Source of the DNA: Nitrospirota bacterium
Lineage (GTDB): Bacteria; Nitrospirota; JACRHL01
Direction of reading: 5' to 3'
DNA length: 64,000 nucleotides
Assembly: GCA_029858285.1 (NCBI GenBank)
Contig: JAOUFN010000014.1
Coordinates: 1-64,000, forward strand
Position numbers and translations under genes: made by a program. The notes below the pieces were generated by a model, which made no database searches, was not told the origin of the DNA, and saw only the letters and a program-made list of their open reading frames with translations. Positions within the stretch are counted from its first letter, which is position 1; each line of letters opens with the position of its first letter. Positions 1,619 to 54,922 of the stretch are shown in pieces.

Positions 1619-2437
1619 TCAACCTTTTTCATAGGATGCGGGGTCCAGCGCCGGGAGTCCCCGAGTCAGCTCCTCCAACTCTCCCAGGTCATACCCGAGG
1701 GAGGCCGCCACGGCCGCAGGTTCATGGGAAGTAATAATCGGTTTGCCGTCGAACTGGAACTGGTCCCGGGTCAGCCATTCGGCCAGAAACACCAGCCGCG
1801 CCAGCGGGTGCTGGGTGGACAACGGCGCCTCTGTGAGGTGGTGTCCTTGAATGGCCGCAACCAGGTCGGTTTCAAAATTCCAGTGCCGGGCCAGGCGTCC
1901 GCCCGCCTCCGGGTGGGTGAAACCGAAAATTTCGATCTCTTCCGCCGGGGTCATCCCCTCCCCGCCCCCGTACGGCTTGTCCGGCAGGCGCACCGCCAGC
2001 AACAGGGCGCCCATGTCGTGCAACAGGCCGGCGGCCAACGCCTGTTCCGCCTGAGGGTGACCGAAACGCTCGGCAATGGCGCGGGCCACCACCGCGCAGC
2101 CCATGGAGTGGGCCCGGAACCGCCGCGGCTGAAACCCCGGCGAAACCGGCAGGGAGGTGAGCACCGAGGTCCCCAGCGCCAAGGCACGGATGGTGTCGTA
2201 GCCCAGCAACAACACCGCATCCAACACCGCCACCACGCGGCGCGTGCAGCCGTAATAGGCAGAATTCACCAGCCGCAGCAGGTTTGCGGACAGGGCCGGG
2301 TCGTACTCGATGACCACCGCCAGGTCGTGTACGGTGGAGCGGTCGTTGCGGCTCACTTCCAGAATTTTTCCCACCACCTCCGGAAGCGTGGGCAACTCGT
2401 CGGTGCGTAAGAGTCTCTTGAGGGAAGGGGTGTCCAT
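1619..2437 (-). CDS. HDOD domain signalling protein
   Basis: LRTDELPTLPEVVGKILEVSRNDRSTVHDLAVVIEYDPALSANLLRLVNSAYYG is a typical HDOD start; internal Met chosen over the longer ORF start at 2578. Confidence 0.85.
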   Translation of the reverse strand: MDTPSLKRLLRTDELPTLPEVVGKILEVSRNDRSTVHDLAVVIEYDPALSANLLRLVNSAYYGCTRRVVAVLDAVLLLGYDTIRALALGTSVLTSLPVSPGFQPRRFRAHSMGCAVVARAIAERFGHPQAEQALAAGLLHDMGALLLAVRLPDKPYGGGEGMTPAEEIEIFGFTHPEAGGRLARHWNFETDLVAAIQGHHLTEAPLSTQHPLARLVFLAEWLTRDQFQFDGKPIITSHEPAAVAASLGYDLGELEELTRGLPALDPASYEKG

Positions 2438-2662
2438 CAGAAAATCAACAGGATGGCGACAACTCCGGTGATCGCGCGCGCCAAAACGGCGTGCGACGCG
2501 GAAAAAAGACGGCTCTTTACCTGTCCTCTTTTCGGTCCGGGGACAAATTGTCTGTAATTTAGCCCCTATTGGGGGCACGTGGGGAAAACCGGGGGGCGCC
2601 GAAAAAAGATTCCGGAGGGGGGATGCAAAAAGACGGATCGGGGAGATCCGCCGCTGGAGCGA

Positions 2663-2881
2663 TTACCGCTCGCGGTAGATGATGCGGCCGCGGGTCAGGT
2701 CGTAGGGGCTCAGTTCCATGGTGACTTTGTCCCCCGGCAGGATGCGGATATAGTGCTTGCGCATTTTTCCGGAGATATGGGCCAACACGGTGTGGCCGTT
2801 CTCCATCTCCACCTTGAAAAAGGCATTGGGCAGGGTTTCCATTACGGTGCCCTCCACCTCGATCGCATCTTCCTTGGACAA
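2663..2881 (-). CDS. infA: translation initiation factor IF-1
   Basis: [72 protein letters not shown]. Confidence 0.97.
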
Positions 2882-2981
2882 ACCGGTCTCCTTCGCTGAT
2901 CAAATCTTTGGGCGGGGGCGCGGCCGGATGCCGTGCCGCCCATCAAGCGGGGCATTGTACCGCCCTTTGCCGAATGTTTGC

Positions 2982-3032
2982 AAAAAAGGAAGGGGAGAAT
3001 GCCAAGTAGAGCCGCTACCCCGTAACCTCCCC
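2982..3032 (-). terminator. Rho-independent terminator-like hairpin downstream of ettA
   Basis: GGGGAG...CTCCCC arms (2992-2997/3027-3032) followed on the minus strand by a T6 tract (2982-2987). Confidence 0.55.
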
Positions 3033-3186
3033 AAGACCTGTGGCCGGGGAAGGGGAAACGCTTCCAGGACACGGAGATACGACGGCATCCTATAGGACGT
3101 GGGGAGCCCGGAAGGCAGCCTGACAACCCCCGCCCGGCAGACCCGGCGCCTTATCAAGGATCGGTGCTGCGAATCGGTGCGACGAA

Positions 3187-4860
<1,674 letters not shown>

Positions 4861-18490: not shown

Positions 18491-21217
18491 ATGACGTCGG
18501 ACACGGTGGACAAGGCCCTGTTTGTTTCCACGGGGGACCCCGAGATGGGCACCGTGGCGGAATACCTGCGCGGCCAGGGGGTGGGCACGCTGGAGTTCTG
18601 CAGTGACGCCGATTCGGCCCTGACCGCCGCCCGCGCGGAACACTATCCGATCATGGTGATGGACGGCCGCTTTGGCGCCGAGGCCTGCCGGGCCTTTTGC
18701 GCCGGGATACACGCCCTGCCGCCGTCCCGTCAGGGGCTGGTGGTGGTCGTGGGGGGAGACGCCGCCCCCCTGTTGCCGCTGCTGGGGGACAGCCTGGACG
18801 ATTTTCTGCCCACGGGCGGCCCGAACACCCTGCTGGCCGCGCGGCTGACGGTGCTTCGGCGGCGGGCGCTGGAACGCGCCCGGTGGCTCACCGCCGAGGG
18901 GGCCATCCGCGACAGCGGCGAACGCCTGCGGGCGGTGGTGGACACCATCCACGACGGCGTCGTCGCCCTCGACGAATTCGGCACGGTGGAACGTCTCAAT
19001 CCGGCAGCGGAACGCATTTTTGGCTACTCCGCCGCAGAGGTGGTGGGGCAGAACGTGCGCATGCTGATGCCCGAGCCGTACCACAGCGAACACGACGGCT
19101 ATCTGGAAAACTACCGGAAGACCGGTGAGCGCAGGGTCATCGGCCACCTGCGCGAGGTTACCGGACGCCGCAAGGACGGCACCCTGTTCCCGCTGGAACT
19201 GGCGGTGGACGAAGGCATCGTGCATGGTCGGCGACTGTTTACCGGCGTGTTGCGCGACATCACGGAGCGCAAGGCGGCAGCAACCCGCATCCACCAGTCC
19301 AACCGCATGCTCCAGGGGGTCACCGGAGCCCAGGCGGCCTTTATCGCCGAAGGCCACCCGGGGGTGGCGCTCCGGGAACTGCTGGCACACCTGCTGGAGC
19401 TGACAGGAAGTGGCTATGGCTTCATCGGCGAGGTGGAACCCCAACCCAAAGGGGCTCCCGTACTGGCCCTGTGTGCTGCGGGAACGGCAGAAAATGCGCG
19501 CCAGATAGATAATGAAAAACTTCTTATATATGCTGATAACAGCATAATTTATAAATCATTTGACTCCGCAACTCCTGCCACAGCGGATCCCGCCGAGCCG
19601 CTCCTTCCCCCCGGCACAATTCCGTCTGACGCCCCCCCCCTGGAGCGCGTCATGGTACTGCCCGTGGTCAGCGGCGAAGAGGTGGTGGGCATGGCGGTGC
19701 TCGGCAACCGCGCCCAGACCTACAAGAAGGACATCATCGAATCCGCCGCCCCCCTGCTGTTCACTGCCGCCAGCCTGATTCAGGCCGCCCGCGCCGAAAC
19801 CGATCGCCGCCAGGCCCGCCGCGCACTCGAAAAAAGCCACGCCGACATGCAAACCGTGCTGAACGGCCTGCGCATCGGCACCCTGATGACCGATCCACAG
19901 GGGGTGGTCACCTTCATGAGCGCCGCGGCACGCCTGCTGTGCACCGCCCCAACCCGCACCACCCCGGCAACCCCCTGCCAGTCGCTGTTTGACTGCCTGC
20001 ATCTGGAGGACGCAGACCGGGCACGGGTAACCACCACAACGGCCCTCCCCGAACCCCAGCGCGCCAAGGTGCCCGTCCACCTGGCTGCCAAGGCCGGTGG
20101 CCAGGAACGCTGGATGGAGCTTGAAATACTCGATGATCCACGCAATGAAAATAGTCGTATCTATTTGATTTACGATGTAACAGACCTTCACGACCTGCGC
20201 CAACTCCTGTCCGAAAAGAACACCTTCCACGAACTGGTGGGACAGAGCAAGCCGATGCGGGTGCTGTTCCAGCAAATACAGGATGTGGCCCAGGTGGACT
20301 GGACGGTTCTGATCGAGGGAGAGACCGGGACCGGCAAGGAACTGGTAGCCCGCGCCCTGCACCGCGCCAGCCCGCGCCACAACAAGCCCTTCATCGCGGT
20401 GAATGCCGCCGGCCTGACAGATTCGGTGCTGGCCAGCCAGCTCTTTGGGCACAAGCGCGGCGCCTTTACTGGCGCCGTTGAGGACCACAAGGGGTTCTTC
20501 GAGTCCGCGGAGGGGGGCACCATCTTCCTGGACGAGATTGGCGACATCCCCATGGGGGTGCAGACCAGCCTCTTGCGGGTGTTGCAAGAGCGCGAAATCA
20601 CCCGGCTGGGGGAGTCCGTGCCGCGCAAGGTGGACGTGCGCGTGGTGGCGGCCACCAACCGCGACCTGGCGCGGGAGGTGGAAAAGGGGGCGTTTCGCGC
20701 CGACCTGCTCTACCGGCTGCGCGTGGCCCGCGTGCGCCTGCCGCCGCTGAACCAGAGGCGCGAGGACATCCCCCTGCTGGCGTCCTTCACCCTTACCCGC
20801 AGTCGCGCCAGCTCCGGCAAGGCGGTGGAGACATTCAACCCGGACGCCATGCGCGTACTGACTACATATAGTTGGCCGGGCAATGTGCGCGAACTGGTGC
20901 ATGCGGTGGAGTTCGCCGTCATCCACGCGCGCACCCGCCAGATCGAGATCGCCGACCTGCCTCCGGAGATCACCACCAGCACCCCGCCACCCCCCTCCCC
21001 AGCCGCCCCCCATGCGGGCATCCCGCTTCCGCAGGAGGGCGCCGTCGGCCGCGCCCCGCGCGCGCCACGCCTGTCCCCGGAGGCGGAGCGGGAGCGCATC
21101 CTGAGCGCCCTAACGGCGTGCGACGGCAACCGGCAGCAGGCCGCCCGCATGCTCGGAGTCGGCCGCGCCACCCTCTACCGACACATGTACGCACTGGGCA
21201 TCCCCACCGCCAAATAA
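18491..21217 (+). CDS. sigma-54-dependent transcriptional activator with FixL-like PAS, GAF-like and second PAS domains
   Basis: PAS with LMPEPYHSEHDGYLENYRKTGERRVIG...GRRKDG; GETGTGKE; GAFTGA; GNRQQAARMLGVGRATLYRHM HTH. Confidence 0.93.
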   Translation: MTSDTVDKALFVSTGDPEMGTVAEYLRGQGVGTLEFCSDADSALTAARAEHYPIMVMDGRFGAEACRAFCAGIHALPPSRQGLVVVVGGDAAPLLPLLGDSLDDFLPTGGPNTLLAARLTVLRRRALERARWLTAEGAIRDSGERLRAVVDTIHDGVVALDEFGTVERLNPAAERIFGYSAAEVVGQNVRMLMPEPYHSEHDGYLENYRKTGERRVIGHLREVTGRRKDGTLFPLELAVDEGIVHGRRLFTGVLRDITERKAAATRIHQSNRMLQGVTGAQAAFIAEGHPGVALRELLAHLLELTGSGYGFIGEVEPQPKGAPVLALCAAGTAENARQIDNEKLLIYADNSIIYKSFDSATPATADPAEPLLPPGTIPSDAPPLERVMVLPVVSGEEVVGMAVLGNRAQTYKKDIIESAAPLLFTAASLIQAARAETDRRQARRALEKSHADMQTVLNGLRIGTLMTDPQGVVTFMSAAARLLCTAPTRTTPATPCQSLFDCLHLEDADRARVTTTTALPEPQRAKVPVHLAAKAGGQERWMELEILDDPRNENSRIYLIYDVTDLHDLRQLLSEKNTFHELVGQSKPMRVLFQQIQDVAQVDWTVLIEGETGTGKELVARALHRASPRHNKPFIAVNAAGLTDSVLASQLFGHKRGAFTGAVEDHKGFFESAEGGTIFLDEIGDIPMGVQTSLLRVLQEREITRLGESVPRKVDVRVVAATNRDLAREVEKGAFRADLLYRLRVARVRLPPLNQRREDIPLLASFTLTRSRASSGKAVETFNPDAMRVLTTYSWPGNVRELVHAVEFAVIHARTRQIEIADLPPEITTSTPPPPSPAAPHAGIPLPQEGAVGRAPRAPRLSPEAERERILSALTACDGNRQQAARMLGVGRATLYRHMYALGIPTAK

Positions 21218-21233
21218 GCCCCCCACCCAACAT

Positions 21234-21284
21234 GAGACACAAAAAGTGTCTCGATACATGTCTCGAGACACTTTTTAGAGACAC
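21234..21284. promoter_or_regulatory. cluster of GAGACAC/GTGTCTC inverted repeats (candidate activator-binding UAS or terminator hairpin)
   Basis: GAGACAC-A5-GTGTCTC (21234-21252), TGTCTCGAGACA (21259-21270), GAGACAC (21278-21284); 14-bp perfect arms AAAAAGTGTCTCGA/TCGAGACACTTTTT. Confidence 0.7.
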
Positions 21285-21427
21285 TCCGCACCCCTCGCTT
21301 CTGCGTCCAGTCACCCTGAATCCCCCCTTTTCTCCGCAAAATGCGAAAATTATTTTTTTGTAACAATTTGTTTTATAACAATTAGCACCTTGTTTATCCG
21401 GAAAATAGCATGCAAGGCATTTGAGCC

Positions 21428-21443
21428 TGGCACGGCATATGTA
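21428..21443 (+). promoter_or_regulatory. near-consensus sigma-54 (-24/-12) promoter candidate
   Basis: TGGCACGGCATATGTA versus TGGCACGNNNNTTGCW: perfect -24 element, degenerate -12 (GT instead of GC). Confidence 0.35.
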
Positions 21444-21676
21444 TTGTTTCAGGCCCAGAGACACACACCGGCTTCACAGGATGTGAGGTGGGTGGGGGTA
21501 GCCTCCCGAAAGGGAGCATGGAGAGAGAGTGGAGAGGTGGGTGGATGGATAGCCGTCCACCCAGCACAGGGTGAGAGAGGCGCCTCCCGGACCCGGGGGG
21601 GGCGGGAGGCGCTTCTCGATCCCGGTGGGTGGCGATGGGCTTTTTTTGATCGGGCGGGGCGAATCGCCTCTTGCCA

Positions 21677-21734
21677 TGTGCATCAGGGTATACCGGGTTG
21701 GTCCCCCATCCTGACCTGGGGACCCTGGTGCACA
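21677..21734 (+). repeat. tandem nested stem-loop unit 1
   Basis: Outer TGTGCATCAG/CTGGTGCACA; inner GGTTGG/CTGACC; loop TCCCCCATC. Confidence 0.7.
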
Positions 21735-21778
21735 ACGCAAGGGGTGATGATGGGTAGCGAGGGATCCGTTTACTGCGC

Positions 21779-21845
21779 TGTGCACCAGTCGGGCGCAGGC
21801 GGGTCGGTTCCCCCATCCCGACCCGATGATACCGGCTGGTGCACA
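21779..21845 (+). repeat. tandem nested stem-loop unit 2
   Basis: Outer TGTGCACCAG/CTGGTGCACA; inner GGGTCGG/CCGACCC; loop TTCCCCCATC. Confidence 0.7.
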
Positions 21846-21995
21846 CCGTAGTGAACGGGTTGCGGGGTATACGAACGCCCCGAGGACCTGTACCATACCG
21901 GGCTCGGCGGGTGAATGGTCCCCGCCTGCCGGGCCCGGGCTGAATGTTCGCTGGTTCCCGGGGTGGTCTTACATACAACACACACCCGCGCCGAC

Positions 21996-22886
21996 GTGGA
22001 ATTCAACTCCTGGTTCGCTCTACGTCTTTGGCCGCCTCGGGAACTGGCGGATCCGCTCTCCGGCCTGCTCATCCACATGGGCGCGTCCGGAACCTGGCAG
22101 GATGGCGACAGTCTCCTCGCCTACTTTGCCTCCCAAACCCAGCCCGACGAGGTCGGCCACGCGGTCTCCGCGTGGTCCGGCCATTTTATGGATCTGGGGC
22201 TGCTCGAATCCGCCCTTGCCGTCACCTGGGAATCCCCCGACAATCAGGACTGGGCCACCGCCTGGCGCGCTCATTTTGTGTCCTTCCCCGTCGGCAAGCG
22301 GCTGATGGTGCTGCCGGAATGGGAGCCCCTGTCTACCGCTGCCGACCGGTTGCCCATCCGCATCCGCCCCGGTCTGGGGTTCGGCACCGGCGGCCACGCC
22401 ACCACCGCCACCTGTCTGGAGGTGCTGGAAAATCATCTGGCCACCCTCCCCCACCCGGACCGCGCCACCATTCTGGATGTCGGCACCGGCTCGGGCATCC
22501 TGGCCATCGCCGCGGCGCGCCTTGGCTGCCGAAAGGTGACGGCCTTCGACAACGACCCGGATGCGGTGCAAAACGCCCGTGAAAACGCCGAGTTGAACGA
22601 TGTTTCCGAGACCGTTCGGCTGTTCGTCGGTACCACCGACGCAGTACAGGGACAGTACGACGTGGTGCTGGCCAACCTGCTGGCCCACGTGATCGTGGAG
22701 TTGATGCCCGACCTGCTCCGCCTGACGGCCTCCGGCGGCCGGATCATCCTGTCCGGCATCCTCAACGAGCAGGGCGATCGGGTGGAGGCCGCTCTGGCCG
22801 CCCACGGCCTGCATGTGGTGGAATATCTGTCCCGCGGCATGTGGCTCACCATTCTCTCCAGGCGCGAGAGCGACCCGCAGGACTAG
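21996..22886 (+). CDS. prmA: ribosomal protein L11 methyltransferase
   Basis: GFGTGGHATTATCLEVLE, ILDVGTGSGILAIAAARLGC, DVVLANLLAHVIVELMPDL; start probably GTG at 21996 (ORF track start 21915). Confidence 0.92.
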   Translation: MEFNSWFALRLWPPRELADPLSGLLIHMGASGTWQDGDSLLAYFASQTQPDEVGHAVSAWSGHFMDLGLLESALAVTWESPDNQDWATAWRAHFVSFPVGKRLMVLPEWEPLSTAADRLPIRIRPGLGFGTGGHATTATCLEVLENHLATLPHPDRATILDVGTGSGILAIAAARLGCRKVTAFDNDPDAVQNARENAELNDVSETVRLFVGTTDAVQGQYDVVLANLLAHVIVELMPDLLRLTASGGRIILSGILNEQGDRVEAALAAHGLHVVEYLSRGMWLTILSRRESDPQD

Positions 22887-36450: not shown

Positions 36451-36527
36451 TGGTCGGGGCGACTGGATTTGAACCAGCGACCACACCCACCCCAAGGGTG
36501 TGCGCTACCGGGCTGCGCTACGCCCCG
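36451..36527 (-). tRNA. tRNA-Pro(GGG)
   Basis: CGGGGCGTAGCGCAGCCCGGTAGCGCACACCCTTGGGGTGGGTGTGGTCGCTGGTTCAAATCCAGTCGCCCCGACCA folds as a cloverleaf with a 7-bp acceptor stem and CCA encoded. Confidence 0.95.
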
Positions 36528-54834: not shown

Positions 54835-54922
54835 TGGTGCCGAAGGGGAGACTCGAACTCCCACGGGGTTACCCCCACTAGACCCTGAACCTAGCGTGTC
54901 TACCAATTTCACCACTTCGGCA
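54835..54922 (-). tRNA. tRNA-Leu(CAG)
   Basis: TGCCGAAGTGGTGAAATTGGTAGACACGCTAGGTTCAGGGTCTAGTGGGGGTAACCCCGTGGGAGTTCGAGTCTCCCCTTCGGCACCA; class II variable arm, CCA encoded. Confidence 0.95.

Follow-up and report, generated by a model that had tools for sequence, protein, structure and literature searches.

A candidate sigma-54-controlled structured RNA element running into prmA in two genera of Nitrospirota

In Pseudomonas, crcZ adjoins cbrB. CbrB is a direct activator of the crcZ and crcY sRNA genes, and their RNAs sequester Crc (PMC6296734); the locus analysed here is alike in having a sigma-54 activator (bEBP) gene next to a sigma-54-transcribed regulatory RNA, which in our case is predicted from sequence. 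It differs in that the structure enters the downstream gene and no kinase lies beside the activator; CrcZ is a shorter, separate sRNA sequestering Crc/Hfq, and no Rfam match links it to our element. The E. coli pspF-pspA locus is another parallel. Its pspA promoter is sigma-54-dependent, and both loci have a promoter of the -24/-12 type TGGCACG-N5-TGTA with the activator gene next door; however, pspA has no such RNA and pspF is divergent, whereas activator and RNA are co-directional here. Start-occluding 5' leaders (riboswitches, RNA thermometers and ribosomal-protein leaders) likewise hold the start in conserved helices and offer an alternative pairing partner, but the present element is much longer, has no Rfam match and no known ligand or domain, and takes the 3' arm of a helix from codons 12-19. 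Finally, genome-wide pipelines have yielded rare GC-rich intergenic structured RNAs (PMC6429828); going by the parts of that report available to us, these are also long, structured, intergenic and narrowly distributed, and the element is not among the RNAs given in those parts.

We analysed the first 64,000 nucleotides (the window) of contig JAOUFN010000014.1, which belongs to a Nitrospirota genome of 2.56 Mb. The nearest matching relative is G003, a Nitrospirota MAG (JAOUMB010000045.1, isolate 8_1_July_SF_Bin21) from another genus of the same family. A structured RNA element of about 600 nt (approximately 21454 to 22052) is predicted between the sigma-54 activator gene and prmA on the plus strand, the strand of all features below unless stated, and G003 keeps its folding rather than its exact sequence. 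An earlier sequence-only reading had placed a candidate structured RNA at 21480-21860. The tandem units and upstream hairpins lie where it had put them, while its boundaries leave out the activator sites, the promoter and the last third of the element, which folds into prmA; past its 3' end come a hairpin of 16 bp (21898-21938) and a helix of 23 bp that reaches prmA codons. The folding check proposed at that time gave a clear answer: 499 nt (21452-21950) fold at -299 kcal/mol, whereas dinucleotide-shuffled versions gave -230 +/- 6 (z -11.5) and none of 100 folded as well, and the G003 counterpart has a z of -9.2, so the region folds far beyond chance. In a local scan, U2 and H5 (described below) had lower z on the plus than on the minus strand. 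When the pairs were read on the plus strand, 44 cells were G-U versus 4 A-C, a count partly biased because the helices were taken from the plus-strand fold. Judged by folding and comparison, the element probably acts as RNA, read from the plus strand.

The region was expected to recur in relatives, and a search of 41 genomes, counting that of the window, found it besides the window only in G003, at the equivalent locus and with 72% identity over 349 nt. Both genomes have the gene order RluB-like pseudouridine synthase, hemerythrin-like, FxsA, activator, RNA and prmA, in which the hemerythrin and FxsA names were assigned by eye from translations. A full-length orthologue of the activator was also found only in G003 among 396 Nitrospirota genomes. 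The representatives of the other two genera of the family, G001 and G002, contain neither a full-length activator orthologue nor the RNA, and a PAP2-like gene lies directly before prmA in both. Presence in two genera and joint absence in two suggest that activator and RNA come and go together, in a small sample of four genomes. The PAP2-like gene overlaps or abuts prmA (L030 of G002, 533-2252; L029 of G001, 2129-3733), which may reflect translational coupling, and activator and RNA of the window genome and G003 sit where G001 and G002 have this gene. A covariance model of the two units, a test suggested earlier, recovered G003 from the 396 Nitrospirota genomes and nothing else convincing besides the window genome; a weak match in G272 (E 0.05) had no related sequence context and was taken as chance. 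The pattern scan of GTDB contigs returned only the MAG of G003, the viral contigs gave no match, and the own genome held no further copies beyond short matches.

All stems and loops named in the sequence-only reading were present where it had put them when the sequence was read and folded, except that the second hairpin has 11 bp instead of 10. Near the 5' end is a G-rich element GTGGGTGGGGG (21488-21498), for which each of the C-rich loops and 21983-21989 are possible partners. Three hairpins follow: H1 (21503-21516; 5 bp, GAAA loop), with 5 of 5 pairs kept in G003; H2 (21538-21563; 11 bp, ATAG loop), matched by an 11-bp hairpin at the equivalent place in G003 (L010:1400-1430); and H3 (21575-21617; 15 bp), with all 15 pairs kept, 4 of them by compensatory double changes. 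A run of seven T after H3 (21641-21647) is absent from G003 and was rejected as a terminator on that account. The tandem units had been described by their outer stems, at 21677-21686/21725-21734 in unit 1 and 21779-21788/21836-21845 in unit 2. Each unit has an extra basal helix of 12-15 bp beyond these stems, so the units really span 21663-21748 (U1) and 21763-21861 (U2). The basal, middle and inner helices have 12, 13 and 7 bp in U1 and 15, 14 and 8 bp in U2, the middle stem TGTGCAYCAG/CTGGTGCACA is common to both, and both carry the loop TCCCCCATC (21702-21710 and 21809-21817). A helix P1 (21655-21661/21876-21882), of which 5 of 7 pairs are kept in G003, possibly closes U1 and U2, with weaker support than the other helices. 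Hairpin H4 (21898-21938; 16 bp) holds an in-frame AUG in its loop, which is UUG in G003. This AUG could extend PrmA by 27 residues (21915-21995), and RNA pairing accounts for the substitutions in that stretch better than coding does.

For the whole element we aligned the two genomes and tested 143 pairs. It turned out that 95.8% of the cells were paired, versus 40-47% with partners slid, and 13 pairs were changed on both sides, versus 0-2 with partners slid; H1 is shifted by one column in the 95.8% count and is 5/5 in the separate pair count. The element thus agrees with the proposal of a conserved RNA fold in which paired bases change together; with only two genera carrying it, the covariation evidence comes from two full sequences (four units). 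That differences between the stems of the units keep pairing was also borne out by the alignment of the four units, in which 98.8% of cells pair versus 31-54% with partners slid. Comparison of the sequences shows that compensatory changes preserve helices H3, U1, U2, H4 and H5. Substitutions by codon position are 49/46/45 across the element versus 68/50/133 in prmA, and most gaps in the element alignment are not multiples of three. The even codon positions and the non-triplet gaps mean that the element is not a protein gene, in line with the earlier statement that no coding gene covers the segment.

Upstream of the element we found a candidate sigma-54 promoter (-24/-12), TGGCACGGCATATGTA (21428-21443), with TGGCACGAGACCTGTA as its equivalent in G003. 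For its form, TGGCACG-N5-TGTA, 0.02 matches are expected in the window, and it is conserved in G003 although the neighbouring spacer is only 42% identical. From this promoter the transcript would start at about 21454. The -12 box is TGTA instead of the usual TTGC; the same variant (T for C) is present in the pspA promoter TGGCACGCAAATTGTA, as read from the E. coli record. All four genomes of the family have rpoN, and no sigma-70 promoter was found on the plus strand. About 160-180 bases upstream of the promoter, tandem TGTCTCGAKACA boxes of 12 bp each (TGTCTCGATACA-TGTCTCGAGACA, 21247-21270, strand unassigned) are candidate activator-binding sites (enhancer). The box region is 64% identical to G003, versus 42% for the adjacent spacer, and the genome has one further occurrence of the TGTCTCGAKACA-box motif, a number close to chance. 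The boxes lie inside a tract of nested inverted repeats around GAGACAC/GTGTCTC (21234-21290), wider than both 12-bp boxes; the tract in G003 is related but rearranged. The sigma-54 activator gene itself (18491-21217) encodes PAS, GAF, AAA+ sigma-54 interaction and Fis-type HTH domains (Pfam Sigma54_activat, 2e-67; PAS; GAF_2; HTH_8), and the GAFTGA motif can be read in its translation. At the sequence level, the locus thus has two marks of a sigma-54-dependent regulatory RNA, namely an upstream -24/-12 promoter and a bEBP gene with candidate upstream sites.

The downstream gene prmA (21996-22886) encodes the ribosomal protein L11 methyltransferase (Pfam PrmA, 2e-67) and has orthologues in G001, G002 and G003, by which its start was assigned to a GTG at 21996. 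Helix H5 (21946-21968/22030-22052), of 23 bp in the window and 21 bp in G003, encloses this start and the first codons; the fold of the extended segment gives it pairing probabilities of 0.96 (window) and 0.98 (G003), and its changes in G003 comprise 2 double and 3 single compensating ones. Since H5 encloses the prmA GUG, the element reaches into the coding part of prmA, and since the 3' arm of H5 is coding (codons 12-19), the element is at least also a prmA leader. Inside H5, an 8-bp hairpin H6 (21993-22026) contains the putative GUG in its 5' arm; H6 is invariant, so covariation cannot test it. The conserved H5/H6 structure thus takes in the prmA start, as is expected of a cis leader. No intrinsic terminator was found ahead of prmA on the plus strand, and no Shine-Dalgarno sequence is visible before the GUG. 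A 23-bp helix burying the start would nearly silence prmA unless opened, and read-through from the activator gene could express prmA too.

Among the columns free of helices, the three best conserved complementarities all use 21488-21498. This G-rich element can form 8 bp with the U2 loop, 7 bp with the U1 loop, or 7 bp with the sequence CACCCGC just 5' of the prmA start (21983-21989), where a U-G pair of the window is C-G in G003; the three pairings are mutually exclusive. The best complementarity score was reached by shuffles in a fraction of 0.007 (single columns) to 0.07 (blocks of five), values at which the pairing switch is suggestive only. The C-rich loops had been thought to target Shine-Dalgarno sites in trans. 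This is conceivable but not supported, and their best conserved partner is GGUGGGGG at 21491-21498, within the own RNA.

We consider it an even prospect that the element is a sigma-54-switched structured leader gating the translation of prmA. In such a leader, an RNA of about 600 nt would be transcribed on the plus strand from the sigma-54 promoter when turned on by the activator encoded next to it upstream, with the signal entering through the PAS/GAF domains of the activator. Rather than a separate gene that stops short of prmA, the RNA would be the 5' leader of the prmA message together with its first codons. H5 and H6 would bury the start codon and lower translation, staying closed until something opens the start. 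The G-rich element may toggle between the C-rich loops of U1 and U2 and the region just 5' of the prmA start. The two C-loops would then compete with the prmA entry region for one strand, and capture of the loops, perhaps by a protein or another RNA, would set how open the start is. Whether this amounts to a new class is doubtful: it would be a sigma-54-gated switching leader in which two C-loop modules compete with the prmA ribosome-entry region for one 5' G-rich strand, the coding sequence supplies the start-burying arm, and L11 methylation is tied to an environmental signal.

A free sigma-54-dependent sRNA of the CrcZ type is clearly a less probable explanation than the leader, yet one to be taken seriously. 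The identical C-rich loops of its repeated hairpins would act by titrating an RNA-binding protein or by base-pairing to G-rich target mRNAs, prmA would be a mere neighbour, and H5 would be the 3' structure of the RNA. The duplicated units with invariant loops, the side-by-side position of activator gene and sigma-54 RNA, activator boxes that look dedicated to the promoter of the element, and the precedent of CbrB directly activating crcZ and crcY (PMC6296734) all agree with it, and it would make the locus a case, in Nitrospirota, of an activator that has a regulatory RNA of its own. However, a U-run terminator ending the RNA before prmA is lacking, the conserved fold goes on into prmA codons, and the best loop partner is found within the RNA itself. 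We think it unlikely that the tandem units bind a ligand or a protein (e.g. L11 or PrmA) in a riboswitch-like or protein-binding cis leader for feedback on prmA. The position before prmA, the structure reaching the start codon and the similarity of the tandem units would suit it, but these long, near-continuous helices, whose internal loops have little conserved sequence, do not resemble metabolite aptamers, and Rfam offered no match and no ligand or protein is known.

That the region holds no functional RNA and reflects DNA-level inverted repeats (recombination or replication) or chance GC-rich folding is very improbable: it is GC-rich and rich in inverted repeats, but the compensatory changes include G-U pairs on the plus strand (the 44 versus 4 A-C cells, with the bias from the plus-strand helix choice), the plus-strand z-scores are stronger, and there is a promoter footprint. 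A short protein encoded across the segment is scarcely credible. Open frames exist on both strands, and the members of one minus-strand pair resemble each other in a short stretch (37% over 78 residues); this similarity is explained by the conserved U1 DNA, and the coding reading was rejected on the even codon positions and the prevailing non-triplet gaps.

If the sigma-54-switched leader is right, it would provide a signal-controlled route to methylation of ribosomal protein L11, and a clear case of a start codon gated by a helix shared by leader and coding sequence. To our knowledge, the purpose of L11 methylation in bacteria is still unclear. Among the papers listed in the search on prmA regulation, none reports such a leader, and no uncatalogued RNA of such size with a dedicated sigma-54 activator before prmA was found in the searches made.

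The sequence-only reading had recognised no known riboswitch class. In agreement, nothing in 20800-22600 reached the gathering threshold of an Rfam 15 covariance model; with E allowed up to 5, only chance matches far below that threshold appeared. Across the whole window, Rfam scores above threshold were obtained solely for two tRNA genes on the minus strand, at 36454-36527 and 54838-54921.
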